Shown piece after piece: positions 50,595 to 62,174 of a DNA stretch of 64,000 nt. The position numbers and the translations under genes were made by a program. Location: NCBI GenBank assembly GCA_015067255.1, contig SVMS01000001.1:1-64000 (forward strand). The letters are read 5' to 3'. The stretch comes from Oscillospiraceae bacterium (GTDB lineage Bacteria > Bacillota > Clostridia > Oscillospirales > SIG519). Under the pieces are notes generated by a model. That model worked only from the letters and a program-made list of their open reading frames with translations. It was not told the origin of the DNA and made no database searches. Within the stretch, counting starts at the first letter, position 1. The number at the start of each line of letters is the position of its first letter.

Positions 50595-52088
50595 ATGTCT
50601 GAAGAAATGGAAGTAATGCAAAGCACCGAAGAGCTTAACGAGCAAATGCAAATAAGAAGAGAAAAACTTAAAGAGCTTCAGGAAATGGGTAAAAACCCTT
50701 TTGCAGAGGTTAAATATCCTGTAGATGCTTATGCAAACAACATAAAAACTAATTTGAGTGATTATGACGGCAAGGAGGTTTGTCTTGCCGGCAGACTTAT
50801 GAGCAAGCGTATGATGGGTAAGGCTTCCTTTGCCGATATTATGGATAATACCGGCAGAATACAGATATATGTCCGCCGTGACAATATCGGTGAAGAAGAA
50901 TACGCACAGTACAAAAAGCTCGACATAGGCGATATTATCGGAATAAAGGGTACTGTTTTTGTAACTCATATGGGAGAAACCTCTATAAACGTTACAGAAT
51001 ATACTCTTTTATCAAAATCTCTTATTCCACTGCCTGAAAAATGGCACGGCCTTAAGGATACAGAAACTCGCTACCGTCGCAGATATGTTGACCTTATTGT
51101 TAATCCCGAGGTTAAAAACACCTTTGTTTTGCGCAGTAAAATTACAAATGAGGTAAGAAATTATCTTGATAATTTAGGCTTCCTTGAGGTTGACACTCCT
51201 GTTTTACACAGCCTTGAAATAGGAGCTTCCGCCCGTCCCTTTATCACACATCACAACACTCTTGATATAGATATGTATCTGAGAATTGAAACAGAGCTTT
51301 ATCTTAAGAGACTTATCGTAGGCGGCTTTGATAAGGTTTACGAGGTTGGCAGAATTTTTAGAAACGAGGGTATGTCAGTTAAGCATAACCCCGAATTTAC
51401 TTCAATAGAGCTTTATCAGGCATATACCGACTATATCGGTATGATGGACCTTATTGAAGACATGTTTAAGGTTATCACAAAGAAAATAACAGGAAAAGAA
51501 ACTATTACTTATCAGGGCACAGAAATCAATATGTGTGCTCCCTGGGAACGTCTTACTATGGTTGAAGCCGTTAAAAAGTATGCTGATGTTGATTACAACG
51601 ACTGGGCAGATGACGAGCAGGCAAGACAGGCTGCTAAGGCAAAACACGTAGAGGTTGAAGCAACCGCAACAAAGGGCGACGTATTGGCAGCTTTCTTTGA
51701 GGAGTATGTTGAAGAAAAGCTTATTCAGCCCACAATAATTTACGATTATCCCGTTGAAATTTCACCTCTTGCAAAGAGAAAGGCAAGCGACCCTCTCTTT
51801 ACAGAGCGTTTTGAATTTTTCATTTATACAAGAGAAATGGGAAATGCCTTCTCCGAGCTTAACGACCCCATTGACCAGCGTCAAAGATTTGTTAAGCAGG
51901 TTGAAGCAAAAAGAGCGCAGGGCGCTAACGCTGAGGTTGATGAAGACTTCCTAATGGCTATGGAATACGGTCTTCCCCCAACAGGCGGCTTAGGCTTCGG
52001 TCTTGACAGATTTGTTATGCTCCTCACCGACAGCGCTTCAATCAGAGACGTTTTACTCTTCCCCACAATGAAAACATTGGAGAAGTAA
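50595..52088 (+). CDS. lysS: Lysyl-tRNA synthetase (class II)
   Basis: A 497-residue class II aminoacyl-tRNA synthetase charging tRNA-Lys. The N-terminal OB fold binds the anticodon (about residues 55-160, with LAGRLMSKRMMGK). Motif 2 is FRNEGMSVKHNPEF and motif 3 is GLGFGLDRFVML near the end. GGAAAGG precedes the ATG. The length and motifs are ordinary. Confidence 0.96.
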   Translation: MSEEMEVMQSTEELNEQMQIRREKLKELQEMGKNPFAEVKYPVDAYANNIKTNLSDYDGKEVCLAGRLMSKRMMGKASFADIMDNTGRIQIYVRRDNIGEEEYAQYKKLDIGDIIGIKGTVFVTHMGETSINVTEYTLLSKSLIPLPEKWHGLKDTETRYRRRYVDLIVNPEVKNTFVLRSKITNEVRNYLDNLGFLEVDTPVLHSLEIGASARPFITHHNTLDIDMYLRIETELYLKRLIVGGFDKVYEVGRIFRNEGMSVKHNPEFTSIELYQAYTDYIGMMDLIEDMFKVITKKITGKETITYQGTEINMCAPWERLTMVEAVKKYADVDYNDWADDEQARQAAKAKHVEVEATATKGDVLAAFFEEYVEEKLIQPTIIYDYPVEISPLAKRKASDPLFTERFEFFIYTREMGNAFSELNDPIDQRQRFVKQVEAKRAQGANAEVDEDFLMAMEYGLPPTGGLGFGLDRFVMLLTDSASIRDVLLFPTMKTLEK

Positions 52089-52211
52089 ACCACTATATAC
52101 AGCTTTGAGAGGATTGTTTGTAACGACATCTTGTGTTTTAGGAGTAACAGCAATATAAATTTACCAAATTGTTTACCAAAAAATTTATTCAAAAGCACAC
52201 GATATAGTAAC

Positions 52212-52245
52212 AAAAAGGCACTATCTTTTACTGATAGTGCTTTTT
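52212..52245. terminator. Bidirectional terminator after lysS
   Basis: AAAAAGGCACTATC and GATAGTGCTTTTT form the stem. The rest of 52089-52490 shows only this hairpin, a second one at 52430 and no credible gene. Confidence 0.82.
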
Positions 52246-53303: not shown

Positions 53304-53610
53304 TTACCTCTTTTCCTCAAATTCTTTTATAAGTTTGTCAAGTGTCGGTCTGCTTATGCCAAGCTCACAGGCAAGAGCCGATTTTGTGATTTCCCTTGAT
53401 ATATAGCGGGCGTAACATTCGGCAAAGTTGCCGACAGTTTTACACTTACCACCTTTGTATTTTCCGCTCCGCTTTGCTATTGCAATACCCTCTCTTTGTC
53501 GCTCCAATAGGTTTACACGCTCAAATTCGTTTATTGCTCCTATCATAGTCAACATCAATTTCCCTGTTGGTGTTAATGTATCTATGTTTTCCTTGTTGCT
53601 TTTTTGCTAT
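53304..53610 (-). pseudogene. Truncated serine recombinase (resolvase/invertase)
   Basis: The C-terminal ~100 residues of a serine recombinase. DTLTPTGKLMLTMIGA leads into the long E helix with NEFERVNLLERQREGI, then the KRSGKYKGGK linker and a helix-turn-helix (ALACELGISRPTLDKLI). The catalytic N-terminal domain with its Ser is missing, and the frame is closed by a stop just upstream. Its 5' end has been replaced by a methyltransferase gene. An internal ATG could still make an 84-residue DNA-binding fragment. Confidence 0.75.
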
Positions 53611-54207
53611 TACTAAATAACTCGAGTTGTTCACTTTCTGATACTCTATATTTTGAAAACCACTATATGACAAAAAGCTTATAATTTCTTTTTTAGAATA
53701 AACTTTAACATCCCCCTCATTACTGAATGGAATAAAAATGTTCATCAACTGGCGAACAGGGAAAGGCTTCCAAAAATCAGCCAATAGTATATGACCGTCA
53801 GTTTTCAGTACTCTATGGAATTCCTCCATCGCTTTCTGCGGATTAGGATAGTGATGAAAACTATCAGTACACATCAGCAAATCAAATTTACCATGTTCAT
53901 ATGGTAAATGCTCGGCATCCCCAAGAGATAATTCTGCAGTATTCAACAATTTCTCTTTTGACTTTTTTAACATTTCTTCTGAGATATCAATTCCGTATAG
54001 CGAAACAGCAGGGTATATGTTTTTAATAGTATTTAAGATTTCACCTGTACCACAGCCCACATCAAGCACATTATCAAACGATATATCTGATAATTTATCT
54101 ATAATGTGCGGATATAGTGTTCTTGCGTGTGCTCCGTTTTTATCTATATCATATGTTGTTGCCTGCAGATTAAAAGTATCTTTTGACAACTTTTTATTAT
54201 CGTTCAT
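53521..54207 (-). CDS. SAM methyltransferase with frame-shifted tail
   Basis: A 228-residue UbiE/COQ5-type methyltransferase. Motif I is VLDVGCGTGEIL near residue 46, then GIDISEEML, GDAEHLPYE and HILLADFWKP. The family part ends at about SYLVIAKK. The last ~25 residues are an out-of-frame reading of the adjacent recombinase gene, so the natural end has been lost at a junction near 53610. GAGG precedes the ATG. Its promoter (TTGAAA-17-TATAAT) forms the left edge of the direct repeat at 54252. Confidence 0.75.
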   Translation of the reverse strand: MNDNKKLSKDTFNLQATTYDIDKNGAHARTLYPHIIDKLSDISFDNVLDVGCGTGEILNTIKNIYPAVSLYGIDISEEMLKKSKEKLLNTAELSLGDAEHLPYEHGKFDLLMCTDSFHHYPNPQKAMEEFHRVLKTDGHILLADFWKPFPVRQLMNIFIPFSNEGDVKVYSKKEIISFLSYSGFQNIEYQKVNNSSYLVIAKKQQGKHRYINTNREIDVDYDRSNKRI

Positions 54208-54251
54208 CTATATAATACCTCTTTCAAATTCAAGTTTATCGAATTGATTGC

Positions 54252-54593
54252 ATTATACCATAAATTATTCAAAATTTCAATATTTCCTGCAATCTTCATG
54301 AGTTATAACGATTCTTATAGAATCTTTATGACTCTTTTTCTTTTATATAAGACTCTTTATTAATCATGATTATTATATAAGTATCATGAGTCTTTATCTT
54401 AAACATAGAGTTATTAAGATTTAGTTTTAGACCATTTTATAGGTATGATATATTCTGAAAAGATAATTTGAGGTAAGATATTTTACCTTGTGTTTTATAA
54501 TCCTTTCATACTCCCACGATGAAGCCCCTTGATTAAGAAAATGCCGTAAAATAGCGGTATTACAGGGTTTTTGAAACTCTATCAAAACCGATT
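54252..54593 (-). repeat. 342-bp direct repeat, copy 1, with promoter
   Basis: Nearly the same sequence as 56275-56615. It begins exactly at a minus-strand -10 box (TATAAT, 54252-54257) with TTGAAA at 54275-54280. It also holds the palindrome GATTCT-TAT-AGAATC and ends near AAACCGATT. It stands just upstream of the methyltransferase gene. Beyond it, at 54590-54612, are two direct TTTACGACA motifs that copy 2 lacks. Confidence 0.85.
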
Positions 54594-54626
54594 TACGACA
54601 CATTTACGACAAATGAAAAAATGAAG

Positions 54627-54661
54627 ACACCCTATGACCGTAAAAAGTCATAGGGTGTTTT
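54627..54661. terminator. Bidirectional terminator
   Basis: ACACCCTATGAC pairs with GTCATAGGGTGTTTT. It ends the leftward GIY-YIG cassette. Confidence 0.85.
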
Positions 54662-54679
54662 GCTGTAGAGTGTATTTTC

Positions 54680-55351
54680 TTAAACTCCCAATCTGTCACG
54701 AATATCGTTTAACCATTCGCCGTTATACTTGAAATAGCAAGGACCGTGAACGGCATATGTAACATTTGAGAGTTTGGCTGCCAAAGCAGAAAGCGAGTAA
54801 GCAGTACCTTCATATTCAACTCTTTTGTTATCAATGACGGTACATTCAATGTCGGTTTCTTGTGTTGCGGTTTTCCAAAATCGCAAAGTTGCCCCAATGG
54901 GAATGTTACAAAGTGAGAACGAAAAAGGAACGGCTCGTGCCTTTCTCTCTTCAACTATTTCTTTTGCAACCCCTTCTGCATCTATATCTTCATCGCTAGG
55001 CGGAATCAACTTCAATTTGTCGGCACATCCATGAATCTCTGCAATGGCTTCTAAAATAGAATAAGCATCTTCGGGCTTCATAGCATAAAATTCACGGACT
55101 CTCTTTTGTCCTTTAAAGTTATCTATGGACCGCAAATTTGGATTTAGTTTATCTATTATGGTGTGAATCTTTAAGTCTGATAATCGGGAATTAACTTCAT
55201 AGGTTGCATAAACACGAAAAGCAAACGGAATGCATTCACTTCGGTTTAACTGTTGTAATCTATTGTCAATATCGTCTGCATATCCTATCTTCACATAATC
55301 GGGAAATGAGGGGTTGGTTAAGATATATATTACACCCTTACTTGATTCCAT
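54680..55351 (-). CDS. GIY-YIG-like (MUG113/T5orf172) protein with DUF4357-like end
   Basis: A 223-residue protein. Residues 5-95 look like the MUG113/T5orf172 branch of the GIY-YIG nuclease fold, with GVIYILTNPSFPDYVKIGYA, R near residue 30 (DDIDNRLQQL) and a later KGQKRVREFY. A linker with Glu/Arg follows. From about 150 a small beta domain (GATLRFWK, then YEGTAYSLSALAAKL and NGEWLNDI) resembles DUF4357 or RAMA domains found with restriction systems. It lies 9 bp after the membrane-protein gene. A defence or DNA-repair role is possible but inferred. Confidence 0.68.
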   Translation of the reverse strand: MESSKGVIYILTNPSFPDYVKIGYADDIDNRLQQLNRSECIPFAFRVYATYEVNSRLSDLKIHTIIDKLNPNLRSIDNFKGQKRVREFYAMKPEDAYSILEAIAEIHGCADKLKLIPPSDEDIDAEGVAKEIVEERKARAVPFSFSLCNIPIGATLRFWKTATQETDIECTVIDNKRVEYEGTAYSLSALAAKLSNVTYAVHGPCYFKYNGEWLNDIRDRLGV

Positions 55352-55360
55352 ACTATACTC

Positions 55361-56245
55361 CTATTCGTCTTGATATTCAAGAACAATGTGAACTTTTACA
55401 TTCAATTTCTCGTCTGCCTGTATTATTTCGGCAATATGTCCGCCCGTTATTTCATAACCCTCATTTGCAAGAGAATCAATTTTGTCCACTATCCGCTTAT
55501 GAAGATATCCTATATCATATGCATTTTGAGTTGATACAAGATAACTGTCGTTTTCGTCTTGGTCAAATGTCAATGTGTCTCCGATTGAGCATTGCTTGAT
55601 TTCAAACTGCATTTTCGGTGTTCCATTATAGACTAACATCGTATCAAATGATAAGGGTGGGAAATTGCTAGTTGTGACCTTTTTGGGTTGCTCTGTTGGG
55701 GCAAAGAAGTTTTGGGTGGTTTGTGCAGTTTCTTGTTTGGGTGATGTTTCTACAATATCGGGTGCAGTAACACCGCTTTTGATTTTTGCCACCTTTTTAT
55801 AGGTTTTACCGACTGAACCGAACAAAATAGCAAGACCAATAAAAATCAAACCTATCGGCAATGTAAACACTCCTGCAATACCCATTATCCAAGCGACTAT
55901 AATTAGAAATGTGCCTGTGCCTTTATATGTACTTGCAGAAGAACGATACTTGCTAATGTCAATTGCAGGAGATTTCTGTTGAGTTGGTTGTTGTTGGCTT
56001 TGATAATTGACAGTTGAATTATTAGACGATGTTTTATGTGGTGTGGAATTAATTACATCATTAAAGCCAACGGTTGTCTTGTTGTAAACTTTGTTGTAGA
56101 GTGCTTTTTTGGGGTTGTTGATATAACCCATACCTTTTTGGCCATATAAAGGATTTACCGCCTTGTTTACTGTTCTTTTGAGTTTTCCTGTTGTATGAGC
56201 ACTAATAGACCTTTTTATGCTCGGCTTCCGCATACCAATTTTCAT
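55361..56245 (-). CDS. Membrane protein with HIRAN-like C-terminal domain
   Basis: A 294-residue protein. The first 70 residues are basic (KRSISAHTTGKLKR, YGQKGMGYINNPKKA), a type seen in mobile-element proteins of Firmicutes. A Gln/Ser-rich stretch follows. Two close transmembrane helices lie at about residues 108-150. The last 90 residues (GDTLTFDQDEND, then NAYDIGYLHKRI and GHIAEI) resemble a HIRAN DNA-binding fold. AGGAAT precedes the ATG. It heads the cassette with the GIY-YIG gene and is driven from repeat copy 2. Confidence 0.6.
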   Translation of the reverse strand: MKIGMRKPSIKRSISAHTTGKLKRTVNKAVNPLYGQKGMGYINNPKKALYNKVYNKTTVGFNDVINSTPHKTSSNNSTVNYQSQQQPTQQKSPAIDISKYRSSASTYKGTGTFLIIVAWIMGIAGVFTLPIGLIFIGLAILFGSVGKTYKKVAKIKSGVTAPDIVETSPKQETAQTTQNFFAPTEQPKKVTTSNFPPLSFDTMLVYNGTPKMQFEIKQCSIGDTLTFDQDENDSYLVSTQNAYDIGYLHKRIVDKIDSLANEGYEITGGHIAEIIQADEKLNVKVHIVLEYQDE

Positions 56246-56274
56246 AACATTCCTCGCAATTTTTACTTTTCTTT

Positions 56275-56615
56275 ATTATACCATAAATCAATCATAATTT
56301 CAATGTCTCTTACAATCTTCATAAGTTATAACGATTCTTATAGAATCTTTATGACTCTTTTTCTTTTATATAAGATTCTTTATAAATCTTCATGATTATA
56401 TAAGCATTATGAGTCTTTATCTTAAACATAGAGTTATTAAGATTTAGTTTTAGACCATTTTATAGGTATGATATATTCTGAAAAGATAATTTGAGGTAAG
56501 ATATTTTATCTTGCGTTTTATAATCCTTTCATACTTTTCACGATGAAGCCCCTTGATTAGAAAATGCCGTAAAATAGCGGTATTACAGGGCTTTGGAAGA
56601 AACCAAAAACCGATT
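56275..56615 (-). repeat. 341-bp direct repeat, copy 2, with promoter
   Basis: Copy of 54252-54593, offset by 2,023 bp. It begins at the -10 box TATAAT (56275-56280), with TTGAAA at 56298-56303, a 17-bp spacer. Sequence identity falls off exactly at the -10 box on one side and after AAACCGATT on the other. Confidence 0.85.
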
Positions 56616-57376: not shown

Positions 57377-57501
57377 AGACTAAACAATAGGGTTATTGCG
57401 CCTAAAGTCAGATAATATAATTGGTAATTGGGTACAAAAACCTTTCAATAAATTTTTCGGTCAAGCTTTGATTGATGTCATTTAAGGAGCGAAGTAAATT
57501 A

Positions 57502-58266
57502 ATGGAAAGACAAGAAAATAACAACAGGGAATATTATACGATTGACGTATTACATATTATCAAGTCGCTATGGAGAAGAGCTTGGGTTGTTGTTTTGTGT
57601 AGCTTTTTGGCAGGTATCATAGGATTTTTGGTGTCTTCATTCGGTATTGCGCCTACCTATTCCTCCTACGTTAAATTATACGTTAACAACAGTTCTTTTT
57701 CTCTTGGTAATACCAGCTTTAGCATCAGCTCTTCTGAGCTTATGGCTGCACAGAGCCTTGTAAGGACTTACGGTGAAATTTTGGACAGCCGAAGCACATT
57801 TGAGCTTGTTATAAAAGAAGCCGGCGTTGACTATACCTGGAAAGAGCTTGCTGATATGGTTAAATACACACCTTCCAACGATACGGAAATTATGCTGGTA
57901 ACAGTTACCTGTAATGACCCGTATGAAGCGTGCAAGATTGCTGAAACCATTTCAAAGGTTTTGCCTATCCGAATTTCCGAAATTATAGACGGAGCTTCTA
58001 TGGAAATTGTTGATTCTGCTTTTGCGGATACCGAAAAGATTGCTCCAAGCATCACTAAGTTTACAGCGGTAGGACTTATACTTGGTTTTCTTATTTCTGT
58101 TATTGTGTTGATTATTATAGCTCTTATGGACGATACAATTCACGATGAAGAATATATTCTCAGAACTTACGATTATCCTATACTCGGTAAGGTTCCTGAC
58201 CTTGTAAATGTTAACGGAAAGTCTTACAGATATTATTCTCAAAGACATCGGAAAACCGAAAATTAA
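57502..58266 (+). CDS. Wzz/YveK-type polysaccharide co-polymerase
   Basis: A 254-residue membrane protein that sets polysaccharide chain length and activates the paired tyrosine kinase. The first transmembrane helix is near residues 28-48 (AWVVVLCSFLAGIIGF, abridged) and the second near 195-215. The external loop between has SSSELMAAQSLVRTYGEIL and PSNDTEIMLVTV. A short C-terminal tail (YRYYSQRHRK) faces the cytosol. AAGGAG lies before ATG 57502. The kinase gene follows 16 bp later. Confidence 0.88.
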   Translation: MERQENNNREYYTIDVLHIIKSLWRRAWVVVLCSFLAGIIGFLVSSFGIAPTYSSYVKLYVNNSSFSLGNTSFSISSSELMAAQSLVRTYGEILDSRSTFELVIKEAGVDYTWKELADMVKYTPSNDTEIMLVTVTCNDPYEACKIAETISKVLPIRISEIIDGASMEIVDSAFADTEKIAPSITKFTAVGLILGFLISVIVLIIIALMDDTIHDEEYILRTYDYPILGKVPDLVNVNGKSYRYYSQRHRKTEN

Positions 58267-58282
58267 GGAAGGGGGCATTAAA

Positions 58283-59053
58283 ATGGATTTATTTAAAAAA
58301 AGACGTAAACATAGAAGCTTTATGTCTGTCAACAACGACATTAAAAAGACGCTTCATAAAAATCTTGCATTTACAGCAACTGAACAGTATAAGCTAATTC
58401 GTGCAAATCTTGATTTCACGCTTCCTGAGGATGAAAAATGTCCCGTAATCGGTGTTACAAGCTCAATGAGAGGCGAAGGAAAAAGCACAACTGCAGTAAA
58501 CCTTGCTTACGTATTTGCAGAAAAAGGCAGTAAAGTACTTCTGATTGACGCCGACCTTCGAATTCCTTCAATTGCAAAAAAGCTTGAAATTGAAAGCACT
58601 CCCGGACTTACGGACCTTCTGAGAGGTAAGGGCGCACAAATGTCCGAATTTCAAACACACTTGCTCAGCAACTGGTTTGTTCTTCCGTCGGGTGATATTC
58701 CTCCCAATCCTTCCGAGCTTTTGGGTTCAAGCAGAATGGAAAACGTATTAAACCAGCTAAAAGAGGCTTTTGACTATATCATTATTGACCTTCCGCCGGT
58801 CAATATCGTATCCGATGCAGTTTCTATTTCAAGTCTTATTTCCGGTATGATTGTCGTTATCCGTGAAGAATACACTGAGAAGAAGGAGCTTGAGCGTTGC
58901 TTCAGACAGTTAAAGCTTTCCAATGTGCATGTTCTTGGCTGTGTTATGAACGAAGCTAAGGAAGGCAGCGGTACTTACGGCAGATACAAGAAATACAGAT
59001 ATTACAAAAACTATCGCTACTATCAAAGTGAATCAAAAGGGTCTAAAAATTGA
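58283..59053 (+). CDS. CpsD/CapB-type bacterial tyrosine kinase
   Basis: A 256-residue cytosolic BY-kinase. Walker A is SSMRGEGKSTTAVN near residue 58, Walker A' VLLIDADLR near residue 85 and Walker B YIIIDLPP near residue 165. The C-terminus is a tyrosine cluster, YGRYKKYRYYKNYRYYQ, the site of autophosphorylation. It works with the Wzz-type protein upstream and is dephosphorylated by the PHP phosphatase encoded next, whose start overlaps its stop. GGAAGGGGG precedes the ATG. Confidence 0.93.
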   Translation: MDLFKKRRKHRSFMSVNNDIKKTLHKNLAFTATEQYKLIRANLDFTLPEDEKCPVIGVTSSMRGEGKSTTAVNLAYVFAEKGSKVLLIDADLRIPSIAKKLEIESTPGLTDLLRGKGAQMSEFQTHLLSNWFVLPSGDIPPNPSELLGSSRMENVLNQLKEAFDYIIIDLPPVNIVSDAVSISSLISGMIVVIREEYTEKKELERCFRQLKLSNVHVLGCVMNEAKEGSGTYGRYKKYRYYKNYRYYQSESKGSKN

Positions 59054-59745
59054 TAGATTGGCATAGCCATATTTTACCGGGAATAGATGACGGAAGTCGA
59101 AACACATCAGAAAGCGAAGAGCTGATAAATGCGCTTGCGCTGCAAGGGGTATCAACTATAATAGCTACTCCTCACTTTTACGCAAACGATGAAACGGTGG
59201 AAGCATTTCTTGAAAGAAGAAACAAGGCTTTTGAAATTTTAAAGGGTGAATTATCCGAAGAAGCTCCCGAGATACTTTTAGGGGCAGAGGTAAGATATTA
59301 CCGTGGAATAAGCCGCTTGGAAAATCTTAAGGCGCTCAGAATTGAAGGAACTAAGCTTCTTCTTTTAGAGATGCCGATGTCAAGTTGGTCGGAATATATG
59401 ATTAGAGAGCTTATTGAGTTATCCTCAAAAAGCAGTATTAAAATTATTCTTGCCCACGTTGAAAGATATTTGCATCTTCAAAAGCAAGCCGTATGGGAAA
59501 GACTTTTTGAAAACGGTATTTTAATGCAGGTAAACGCAAGCTTTTTTATAACCCTTGCATCAAGGCGAAAAGCAATAGCACTTCTCAATGAAGGAAGCAT
59601 TCACATTGTGGGCTCTGATTGTCATAATATGAAATCGAGACCGCCTATGATTGACAAAGCCTTTGAAATAATCAAAAGAAAGCTTGGCGGAGATTATATA
59701 AAGCAAATTAACGAGTATGGATATTCCCTGCTCGCTATAAAATAA
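59050..59745 (+). CDS. CpsB/CapC-type PHP tyrosine phosphatase
   Basis: A 231-residue manganese-dependent protein-tyrosine phosphatase of the PHP fold. Metal ligands are in DWHSHILPGIDDGS at the start, ATPHFY near residue 40, LLGAEVRYY near residue 75, ILAHVERY near residue 135 and VGSDCHN near residue 195. The start codon is TTG, overlapping the kinase stop (TTGA), so translation is coupled. It resets the tyrosine kinase during polymer assembly. Confidence 0.92.
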   Translation: MIDWHSHILPGIDDGSRNTSESEELINALALQGVSTIIATPHFYANDETVEAFLERRNKAFEILKGELSEEAPEILLGAEVRYYRGISRLENLKALRIEGTKLLLLEMPMSSWSEYMIRELIELSSKSSIKIILAHVERYLHLQKQAVWERLFENGILMQVNASFFITLASRRKAIALLNEGSIHIVGSDCHNMKSRPPMIDKAFEIIKRKLGGDYIKQINEYGYSLLAIK

Positions 59746-59776
59746 TTAATTATTTATCGAAAGGATGAATTTAAAA

Positions 59777-60454
59777 ATGAAAAAAGTATTGGCAAGTTGT
59801 TTGATTATCGTAATGTTGGTGAGTATGTGTGTAAGCGTATTCGCTGCACCAAACGGATTTGTTTCCAGCCCTTCCGGAAACGATGCTCCTATTGTTGTGG
59901 AATTTAATCCTGCTGATGAAGATTGTACTGCAAGGCTGGTTATTACTCCTTATGCAGATCGTCACGAGTTGACAGGTGCACTTCTTGCAATGTTTGAAAA
60001 AGCGTATAACTCAATTGTAAATTCAGAAGATATTTCACTTCTCAACAATGACCTTTTGAAGCTTATTACTGACAAGAAAATTAACGGCAAGAATCTTGCA
60101 GTAAGCGATTTGTTTGATATCCATGTTACAGGCTGTGATTATCACGATGAGCATATGGATTTTGACGTTATACTTGATGCTGATACATTAAGTCATTTTG
60201 TTGCATTACTCCATATGAACAAAAACAGTGAATGGGAGCTTGTTAAGGATGCAAAAGTAGTAAACAACGGCGAACATTTACAATTTTCCGTTGATTCTTT
60301 CTCTCCCTTTGCTGTAGTTGTTGATACAAGTGCAGGCGGTCAGGTATCTCCTCCCACAGGCAGCAACAGCAATATCTATATTTGCGCTGTTGTTATGGCT
60401 GTTTGTGCTTTAGCTCTTGTTTTTGTTTTTGTTATAAACAAGAAGAAGGCTTAA
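59777..60454 (+). CDS. Exported protein with sortase-type C-terminal anchor
   Basis: A 225-residue secreted protein. Residues 1-24 are a signal peptide ending VFA. The C-terminus is a cell-wall sorting signal, SPPTG followed by a hydrophobic span and KKK. The main part is about 165 residues of mixed fold with DVILDADTLSHFVALLHM and FSVDSFSPFAVVVD, the latter a common ending in Clostridial surface proteins. ATG 59777 is chosen with GAAAGGA upstream. It lies inside the polysaccharide operon. Function unknown. Confidence 0.75.
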   Translation: MKKVLASCLIIVMLVSMCVSVFAAPNGFVSSPSGNDAPIVVEFNPADEDCTARLVITPYADRHELTGALLAMFEKAYNSIVNSEDISLLNNDLLKLITDKKINGKNLAVSDLFDIHVTGCDYHDEHMDFDVILDADTLSHFVALLHMNKNSEWELVKDAKVVNNGEHLQFSVDSFSPFAVVVDTSAGGQVSPPTGSNSNIYICAVVMAVCALALVFVFVINKKKA

Positions 60455-60472
60455 GTTTCGGGTATTGGAAAG

Positions 60473-61462
60473 ATGAGCATTAAGAAGAATTATCTTAAAT
60501 ATACAGCCATTGCGCTTGTGATTATTTTTCTTATAGCCGCTGCGTTTTTACTTCTTGAGGTGTGGGAAAAAAATCGAAATAAATTTCCTGTAACAAGCAC
60601 AGAAGATGGCGTAATTACCTACGACAACGATGACTATATTAAAAAGTCAAATATTGAAACCTTTTTAGTAATTGGCTTGGACAGATATAAGGATGCTACC
60701 TCTGCCGAATCTCACGACAACAGTGTTCAAGCAGACTTTCTGATGCTTATAGTCTTTGATAATGACTCTAAGCAAAGCACTGCAATTCACATCAACCGTG
60801 ATACTATGACAAGGGTAAACAAGCTTTCTGTCGGCGGCGCCTCGGTTGTTGAAACGACTACAAAGCAAATAGCTCTTGCCTACAACAATGTCAACGACAA
60901 TAACGATAAAATCAGATGCAGAAATACAAAAGATGCGGTTGAATATCTGCTTAAGGATATAAAAATCGACCACTATTTAGCCTTAACTATGGATTCAATT
61001 TCTGCAGGCTGTAATCTTGTTGGCGGTGTTGAGGTTACCGTGCTTGACGATTTCAAAGGAATTGATGACACTCTTATTAAGGGTGAAAAGGTTACCCTGA
61101 CAGGTGAACAGGCACTTACGTACGTGCGTACCCGTTACGGTCTTGAGGACAGCAGTAACAGTACAAGAATGGCACGTCAGCAGCAGTTTATAAATGCGCT
61201 GTATAATAAGCTTATTTCTTGTATAAATGCCGATGAAGGCTTTGTTTTAAAACTAATTAACACAATGGACGATTATGCAGTATACGATTCCTCTGACCAA
61301 AAAATGATTAAATTTGGCGAGAAATTCAAAGACTACGAATTTCTCGGAATAAGAGAAATTGAAGGCGAATCGAAGCTTGGCGAAGAGTTCATTGAATTTT
61401 ATCCCAATGATGATTCTTTGTGGGAAATCGTATTAGATTTGTTTTACACAAAGAAACAATAA
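60473..61462 (+). CDS. LytR-CpsA-Psr family cell-wall polymer ligase
   Basis: A 329-residue protein with one N-terminal transmembrane helix (about residues 10-30) and an external LCP domain. Family landmarks are FLVIGLDRYKD near residue 63, ADFLMLIVFD, IHINRDTM near residue 105 and ALTYVRTRYGLEDSSNSTR near residue 215, whose Arg residues bind the lipid pyrophosphate. LCP enzymes attach polymers from a lipid carrier to peptidoglycan. It lies 18 bp after the anchored protein. Confidence 0.92.
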   Translation: MSIKKNYLKYTAIALVIIFLIAAAFLLLEVWEKNRNKFPVTSTEDGVITYDNDDYIKKSNIETFLVIGLDRYKDATSAESHDNSVQADFLMLIVFDNDSKQSTAIHINRDTMTRVNKLSVGGASVVETTTKQIALAYNNVNDNNDKIRCRNTKDAVEYLLKDIKIDHYLALTMDSISAGCNLVGGVEVTVLDDFKGIDDTLIKGEKVTLTGEQALTYVRTRYGLEDSSNSTRMARQQQFINALYNKLISCINADEGFVLKLINTMDDYAVYDSSDQKMIKFGEKFKDYEFLGIREIEGESKLGEEFIEFYPNDDSLWEIVLDLFYTKKQ

Positions 61463-61493
61463 AAATCTTTAAACGAAGGGAGCTGTTATATAA

Positions 61494-62174
61494 ATGAATG
61501 TAAAAGAAGAAAATTTAATAGCGGTTCCCTCTTTAGAGGAAAACCCGAAGCTACATATAGAGAAAAAACCGATATATTCTTTTTTGAAAAGGACCTTTGA
61601 TATTATCTTTTCTTTGTTTGGACTTCTTTTGCTTATAGTACCGCTTTTGATTGTGGCATTGATTGTAGTTATTGACAGTCCAGGCGCATCTCCGATTTAT
61701 GCTCAGGAGAGAATCGGAAAGAACGGCCGCAAATTTAAGTTTTATAAATTTCGTTCTATGGTTCCCAATGCAGACAAGATGTTAGAACAGCTTCTTGATA
61801 AAAACGAGATGGAAGGTCCTGTTTTTAAAATAAAGGATGACCCGAGAATTACACGCTTCGGTCATTTTATACGTATTACAAGTATAGATGAGCTTCCTCA
61901 GCTTTGGAACGTGTTTAAAGGAGATATGAGCCTTGTGGGACCCCGTCCCCCGCTTCCTCGAGAGGTTAAGCAATACACAGAGCATCAGTTCCAAAGATTA
62001 TCCGTTATCCCCGGTATTACAGGCTATTGGCAAATTCAGCCTAAAAGAAACAGCCTTTCCTTTGATGAATGGCTGGCATTAGATTTGAAATACATATCCG
62101 AAAGAAGCCTTTGGACAGACTTAAAGATACTTTTTGGAACTGTTAGGGCTGTACTCGGATTGGAGGGAGAATAG
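61494..62174 (+). CDS. Priming sugar-phosphate transferase
   Basis: A 226-residue polyprenyl-phosphate sugar transferase that starts the repeat unit on undecaprenyl phosphate. One membrane helix lies near residues 35-60 (KRTFDIIFSLFGLLLL before it). The catalytic part follows, with KFRSMVPNAD, SIDELPQLWNVFKGDMSLVG (abridged) and GPRPPLPREV, then PGITGYWQI. The sugar added cannot be read from the sequence. The next gene overlaps its stop by one base. Confidence 0.92.
   Translation: MNVKEENLIAVPSLEENPKLHIEKKPIYSFLKRTFDIIFSLFGLLLLIVPLLIVALIVVIDSPGASPIYAQERIGKNGRKFKFYKFRSMVPNADKMLEQLLDKNEMEGPVFKIKDDPRITRFGHFIRITSIDELPQLWNVFKGDMSLVGPRPPLPREVKQYTEHQFQRLSVIPGITGYWQIQPKRNSLSFDEWLALDLKYISERSLWTDLKILFGTVRAVLGLEGE

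Follow-up and report, generated by a model that had tools for sequence, protein, structure and literature searches.

Why does the same non-coding block occur twice in an Oscillospiraceae genome, each time in front of different genes? For the window, i.e. the 64,000-nucleotide stretch of DNA analysed here, the initial annotation had described two direct repeats with a spacing of 2,023 bp, each with a leftward TTGAAA-17-TATAAT promoter, and had proposed a modular cassette site in which the block is either a recombination target or a control region. BLAST and sequence comparison confirmed the repeats: The two non-coding copies start 2,023 bp apart, they are 92% identical across 341 bp (E=1.7e-135), and the 1.84-Mb assembly contains no further copy. 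The promoter is present in both of them on the minus strand (54280..54252 and 56303..56275), and the surrounding genes agree with the annotation: One copy is next to a methyltransferase gene and the remnant of a serine recombinase, the other next to a membrane-protein/GIY-YIG pair. Our work makes it likely that the locus consists of a few CIME-like cassettes in tandem behind lysS which lack an integrase and are moved by integrases supplied in trans.

The repeated block and the two units behind lysS

The block is more than a promoter, it comprises the right end of a cassette and the attachment core (Table 1). The far end of each copy is a copy of the lysS 3' end, CCCACGATGAAGCCCCTTGATTAAGA, followed by AAATGCCGTAAAATAGCGGTATTACAGGG, and the rightmost ~80 bp of each block consist of this lysS-tail attachment sequence and left-end sequence. 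Both proposed roles of the block appear to be present in separate parts of it: The promoter and a conserved hairpin are located at one end and the attachment site at the other, and the recombination site is the lysS-tail end rather than the promoter. The identity of the two copies had been reported to begin exactly at the -10 box. This holds for copy 2; five genomes (G403, G404, G395, G401 and G398) resemble copy 1 over a further ~25 bp, up to position 54225, and the -10 box is thus no general module boundary. Searches of phage, plasmid and IMG/VR sequences with the block or the left end gave no match, indicating that the block is not a known phage or plasmid sequence, and Rfam contained no RNA family matching the region.

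Table 1. Features of the lysS locus in the window
Feature	Position	Strand	Remarks
lysS (lysyl-tRNA synthetase)	50595..52088	+	intact; target gene
lysS 3' end TTCCCCACAATGAA	52059-52072	+	attachment region; lysS also holds the attachment site in other genomes
Putative arm-like direct repeat TTTACCAAATTGTTTACCAAA of unit 1	52160..52181	+	eroded; assigned from sequence
Terminator-like hairpin of unit 1	52218-52240		after the arm-like repeat
Serine recombinase C-terminal remnant	53304..53558	-	Resolvase, profile positions 112-145 of 145 only
Methyltransferase (Methyltransf_11)	53521..54207	-	unit 1 cargo
Block copy 1	54252..54593	-	unit 1 right end (promoter, hairpin, AT-rich right end), attachment sequence and unit 2 start
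Promoter TTGAAA-17-TATAAT	54252..54280	-	leftward cargo transcription
35-bp dyad GAGTTATAACGATTCTTATAGAATCTTTATGACTC then TTTTTCTTTT (+ strand)	54300..54344	+	most conserved part of the block
Duplicated lysS 3' end CTCCCACGATGAAGCCCCTTGATTAAGA	54511..54538	+	attachment core
Unit 2	54539..56561		complete 2,023-bp cassette between two attachment cores
Conserved unit 2 left end AAATGCCGTAAAATAGCGGTATTACAGGG...	54539..54611	+	
Arm repeat TTTACGACACATTTACGACA	54592-54611		in unit 2 left end
Left-end terminator hairpin ACACCCTATGAC...GTCATAGGGTGT	54627..54658	-	conserved in lysS cassettes
GIY-YIG/T5orf172 nuclease	54680..55351	-	unit 2 cargo; PF10544, E=3.4e-12
Putative membrane protein, 294 aa	55361..56245	-	unit 2 cargo
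Block copy 2	56275..56615	-	unit 2 right end
Second lysS-tail copy	56535-56561		inside block copy 2
Truncated left-end stub	56562-56590		inside block copy 2

Both units are located directly behind lysS. Unit 1 lies between lysS and position 54511, and its order of core, arm and hairpin is that of the cassettes. The methyltransferase and recombinase genes had been regarded as a cassette of their own; the genes are indeed present, and the unit is a partly eroded composite that has been fused with the recombinase remnant rather than an intact cassette. We rejected this remnant as the driver of the system, since a C-terminal piece cannot fulfil this role.

Unit 2 is flanked by lysS-tail copies and contains only the gene for the GIY-YIG nuclease and that for the 294-aa protein; there are no genes for an integrase, a relaxase, a coupling protein or a mating pore. 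The nuclease matches the PADLOC candidate defence family PDC-S57 (E=8.2e-97), and the 294-aa protein had no match in Pfam or PADLOC. The arm at the right end of unit 2 differs from the one at the left end, suggesting that the copy in the window may not be functional. The left-end stub behind unit 2 suggests that a third unit was formerly present. Soon past the array, an exopolysaccharide-type gene cluster begins (57472-62174), in which genes for Wzz-like, CpsD-like kinase, CpsB-like phosphatase, LytR-like and sugar transferase proteins were recognized by eye from the ORF translations.

The same frame carries different cargo in other gut Clostridia

A 29-mer of the left end was scanned across 84,980 species genomes and was found at 13 loci, all of them in MAGs of Clostridia/Oscillospiraceae, most of which carry a ruminant gut label. 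At 7 of the 13 loci, the 29-mer comes immediately after the lysS stop codon, and at most of the others it is preceded by another element that likewise ends in this lysS-tail copy. Behind lysS, the frame was present with different cargo each time in more than 12 MAGs of gut Clostridia that represent at least two orders (G194 and G396, which have an identical contig, are apparently one genome in two collections and were counted once). The common plan begins with the lysS-tail core, the left end AAATGCCG, the arm repeats TTTACGACA (TTTACGACACATTTACGACA in unit 2) and a terminator hairpin; then follow one or two cargo genes directed toward lysS, the promoter, the 35-bp dyad with its T run, an AT-rich right end, and the next lysS-tail core. 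None of the mapped cassettes encodes a recombinase.

The search for the block and its downstream genes identified 15 different cargoes in 14 genomes, and one genome with the block, G509, belongs to a different order of the class Clostridia. The cargo ranges from Toastrack DUF4097, DMP19, transglutaminase-like, AMP-ligase and zinc-ribbon proteins to a lipoprotein and small membrane proteins; one further lysS cassette, which has no dyad, carries a hexapeptide acyltransferase. Thus, the block is neither confined to this genome nor always found in front of the same gene pair, and the idea of a modular cassette site is supported. The presence of just two copies in this genome might also result from a segmental duplication of the right-end/intergenic region that involves no mobility. 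This is highly improbable, as these sequences accompany different cargo in more than one family and also in a second order of the class, and we rejected simple duplication as a full explanation.

At the loci L091 and L097, lysS-tail copies flank the cassette on both sides. Several other cassettes end just past the hairpin without a right-hand core and are therefore immobile now. In these truncated right ends, the promoter and the dyad are mostly kept and the DNA beyond them is lost. In L089, L090, L092, L096 and L099, the right end breaks off at most a few tens of bases from the hairpin T run. A deletion that extended as far as the required promoter and hairpin would be a simpler, if unproven, explanation for right ends at this position than a retro-insertion after the terminator.

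The junctions map to the 3' end of lysS

In G396 and G405, the lysS genes are ~53-82% identical in their aligned part; from the stop codon on, the identity rises to 97-100%, and it continues through the common gene for a 377-aa cargo protein. We regard this jump in identity as the mark of a horizontal insertion at the lysS 3' end. When 9 lysS junctions were compared, the mean identity rose from 60% in the part of lysS that lies 30-59 bases ahead of the left end to 83% in the tail of the gene and 86% in the left end itself. As judged from the ICE in G107, the crossover may occur at CCCGACGATGAAGCC; the pair G396/G405 suggests a point nearer to the stop codon. These positions are not exact since no genome of a very close relative with an unoccupied site is available, and a family search for relatives returned this genome alone. 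It had also been suggested that homologous exchange between the promoter blocks would delete or swap the middle cassette. This mechanism found no support as the driver of the system: The junctions in other genomes coincide with the 3' end of lysS, and this position suggests a site-specific recombination.

Integrases of ICE-like elements at the same site

Which recombinase could act on these junctions? In the same taxonomic order, the lysS 3' end is also occupied by ICE-like elements that carry ParA/ParB genes and that have the same core as well as TTTACGACAAATTTACGACA arms, and the ends of the cassettes resemble the ends of these ICEs. The complete genome G107 contains a core copy at a distance of ~31 kb that carries the displaced lysS end MKPEVK* and marks the other end of the element. 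Integrases of 406-433 aa that combine the Tn916 arm-binding domain (PF02920) with the catalytic domain PF00589 are encoded in L149 (one) and L102 (two). In both loci, one integrase directly adjoins the right core, and TTACGAC arms are also present at the integrase/right-core end in L149. The two integrases of L102 (5186-9069 in G402; 406 and 416 aa) differ from each other and lie in tandem with a Fic-family protein; this group is located between lysS and the left end of the cassette.

Relatives of these integrases (E<=1e-30) were detected in 6 of the 21 cassette genomes; there was none in the whole assembly of the genome studied here nor in 14 of the 20 others, and these genomes are MAGs in which contig breaks could hide an integrase. 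Our genome encodes three tyrosine recombinases, and the two that were compared are both only distantly related to the lysS-site integrases.

Since the core and the arm sequences are shared, we infer that the integrases act in trans, with circular intermediates and current mobility of the cassettes. According to this model, a lysS-specific Tn916-type tyrosine integrase from ICEs or IMEs that share the lysS site and the arm repeats with the cassettes would excise and insert the latter, and each insertion would restore the lysS reading frame. The own promoter and the flanking hairpins would make the expression of a cassette independent of its position.

Promoter and dyad

Most lysS cassettes have retained the -10 and -35 hexamers of the promoter, and the spacer is less conserved. 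In the dyad, 90% of the cells pair as compared to at most 52% in slid controls; the covariation is weak, with a score that was also reached by 18 of 500 shuffles. A T run comes after the dyad, and the loop varies in length. The dyad is probably a terminator hairpin or an operator, and its sequence would fit a terminator that shields the cassette at least as well.

One might assume that the block is a shared regulated promoter of a regulon with the dyad as the binding site, and that the repeat and the tandem arrangement arose by homologous recombination or duplication. Indeed, the promoter hexamers and the dyad are the most conserved parts, and most truncated cassettes have retained both, so both seem to matter for expression. 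We consider this idea unlikely: It leaves unexplained the lysS-tail copies, the exact junction at the stop codon across species, the arm repeats and the parallels to the ICEs, and the T run and the variable loops of the dyad fit a terminator at least equally well.

A second target gene, rpsI

The same chassis was found behind rpsI in G251, G178, G154, G102 and G021 and at a secondary site in G331. The hairpins of these cassettes are like those at lysS; the core (TTCTCCAAGAGATAATC) and the arm repeat (TTGGTGCAAACTTGGTGCAA) are different. The promoter-side dyad is present in G251, G178 and G331, and the other rpsI-type cassettes were recognized by their left end and arm. A 118-aa cargo protein is common to G331 and G154. 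Moreover, G244 contains an additional frame of hairpin, cargo, promoter and dyad that is located at neither lysS nor rpsI (L139:2900-4020). Taken together, rpsI and the other sites suggest that the expression frame has been combined with different attachment modules.

Relation to known elements

A CIME is the product of the decay of an individual ICE or IME by deletion, and it is mobilised in cis after accretion with an ICE or IME. CIMEs, as known from ICESt1-related elements and the composite islands of S. salivarius with their CIME-ICE/IME accretion, are the nearest described class. They have attachment-site flanks and no recombinase or transfer genes, they are 1.2-13 kb in size, and housekeeping genes carry them as tandem arrays at their 3' ends (PMC7563491, PMC5704250). 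Our cassettes have the flanks, the lack of recombinase and transfer genes and the tandem position behind a housekeeping gene in common with CIMEs; they differ by one conserved frame of terminator, cargo, promoter and hairpin that is combined with many cargoes in two orders and that exists in lysS and rpsI versions. In streptococci, ICEs at the lysS 3' end are bordered by direct repeats of 13-17 bp (PMC4701971). The cassettes share the lysS target end, the attachment core and the arm type TTTACGACA with the lysS ICEs, which are elements with tyrosine integrases; unlike lysS ICEs or IMEs, they are ~1-2 kb in size and have neither conjugation genes nor a tyrosine integrase of their own.

The cassettes might thus be ordinary CIMEs, i.e. 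decayed ICEs or IMEs that have lost the integrase and transfer genes, kept their ends, and accumulated in tandem at lysS as in streptococci. We take this as a serious possibility, although we would give it somewhat less than even weight. CIMEs in tandem have been described at rpsI, rpmG, fda and rplL (PMC7563491, PMC5704250), ICEs at lysS are known (PMC4701971), and arms and core are common to the cassettes and the lysS ICEs. However, independent decay would not result in the same, near-identical frame of hairpin, cargo, promoter and hairpin behind two targets and with 15 cargoes, and this promoter/hairpin block is absent from every ICE or IME seen here. The near-identical expression frame with its many cargoes and two attachment versions rather argues for a lineage of its own. 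Such a dedicated lineage of non-autonomous, promoter-bearing cassettes in Clostridia, to which we assign very nearly an even chance, would use the integrases of ICEs and IMEs, and its constant frame would swap both the cargo and the lysS- or rpsI-type attachment modules, resulting in an integron-like capture without an integron.

Integron cassettes have an attC site that is recognized by the integrase IntI, and their promoterless cargo is expressed from a common promoter. Our cassettes resemble them in several respects: They are small, their one or two cargo genes share one orientation, they are stacked at a fixed site, the tyrosine recombinase is encoded elsewhere (as we infer here), and the cargo includes small membrane proteins, a nuclease and a methyltransferase. 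In contrast to integrons, there was no IntI or attC, as judged from the shared ends and the integrases: The shared ends are the lysS tail and direct arm repeats, and the integrases at the lysS site are of the PF02920 Tn916 arm-binding type. Moreover, each cassette has its own conserved TTGAAA-17-TATAAT-like promoter, the cargo faces the anchor gene, and the site is the 3' end of a housekeeping gene.

Finally, the ssrA-specific islands of Dehalococcoides are arranged in tandem and bounded by copies of the target-gene end, and some of them have no recombinase genes (PMC3146451). Here as there, tandem units without a recombinase lie between copies of the target end; the Dehalococcoides islands differ in that they use a serine recombinase system, are larger, and have no described common promoter frame (PMC3146451). 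CIMEs and lysS ICEs are known, and what sets the present cassettes apart is that one expression frame is combined with many cargoes and exists in two attachment versions; we found no description of this frame in the open-access literature.

If the cassettes form their own lineage, they would represent a system of gut Clostridia that spreads single genes between distant hosts at fixed, harmless sites. Each cassette would bring its own promoter and borrow the integrases of other elements, in the present case for a candidate anti-phage nuclease. The question of trans-mobilisation can be tested with one integrase and two short sites. The conserved ends provide a sequence handle to list the cassette cargo in gut genomes, much of which has no known function. 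In the lysS array of G086, another unit (L096:4755-5390, minus strand) codes for a protein of 212 aa that matches the ADP-ribosyltransferase exoenzyme domain PF03496 (E=4.4e-10).
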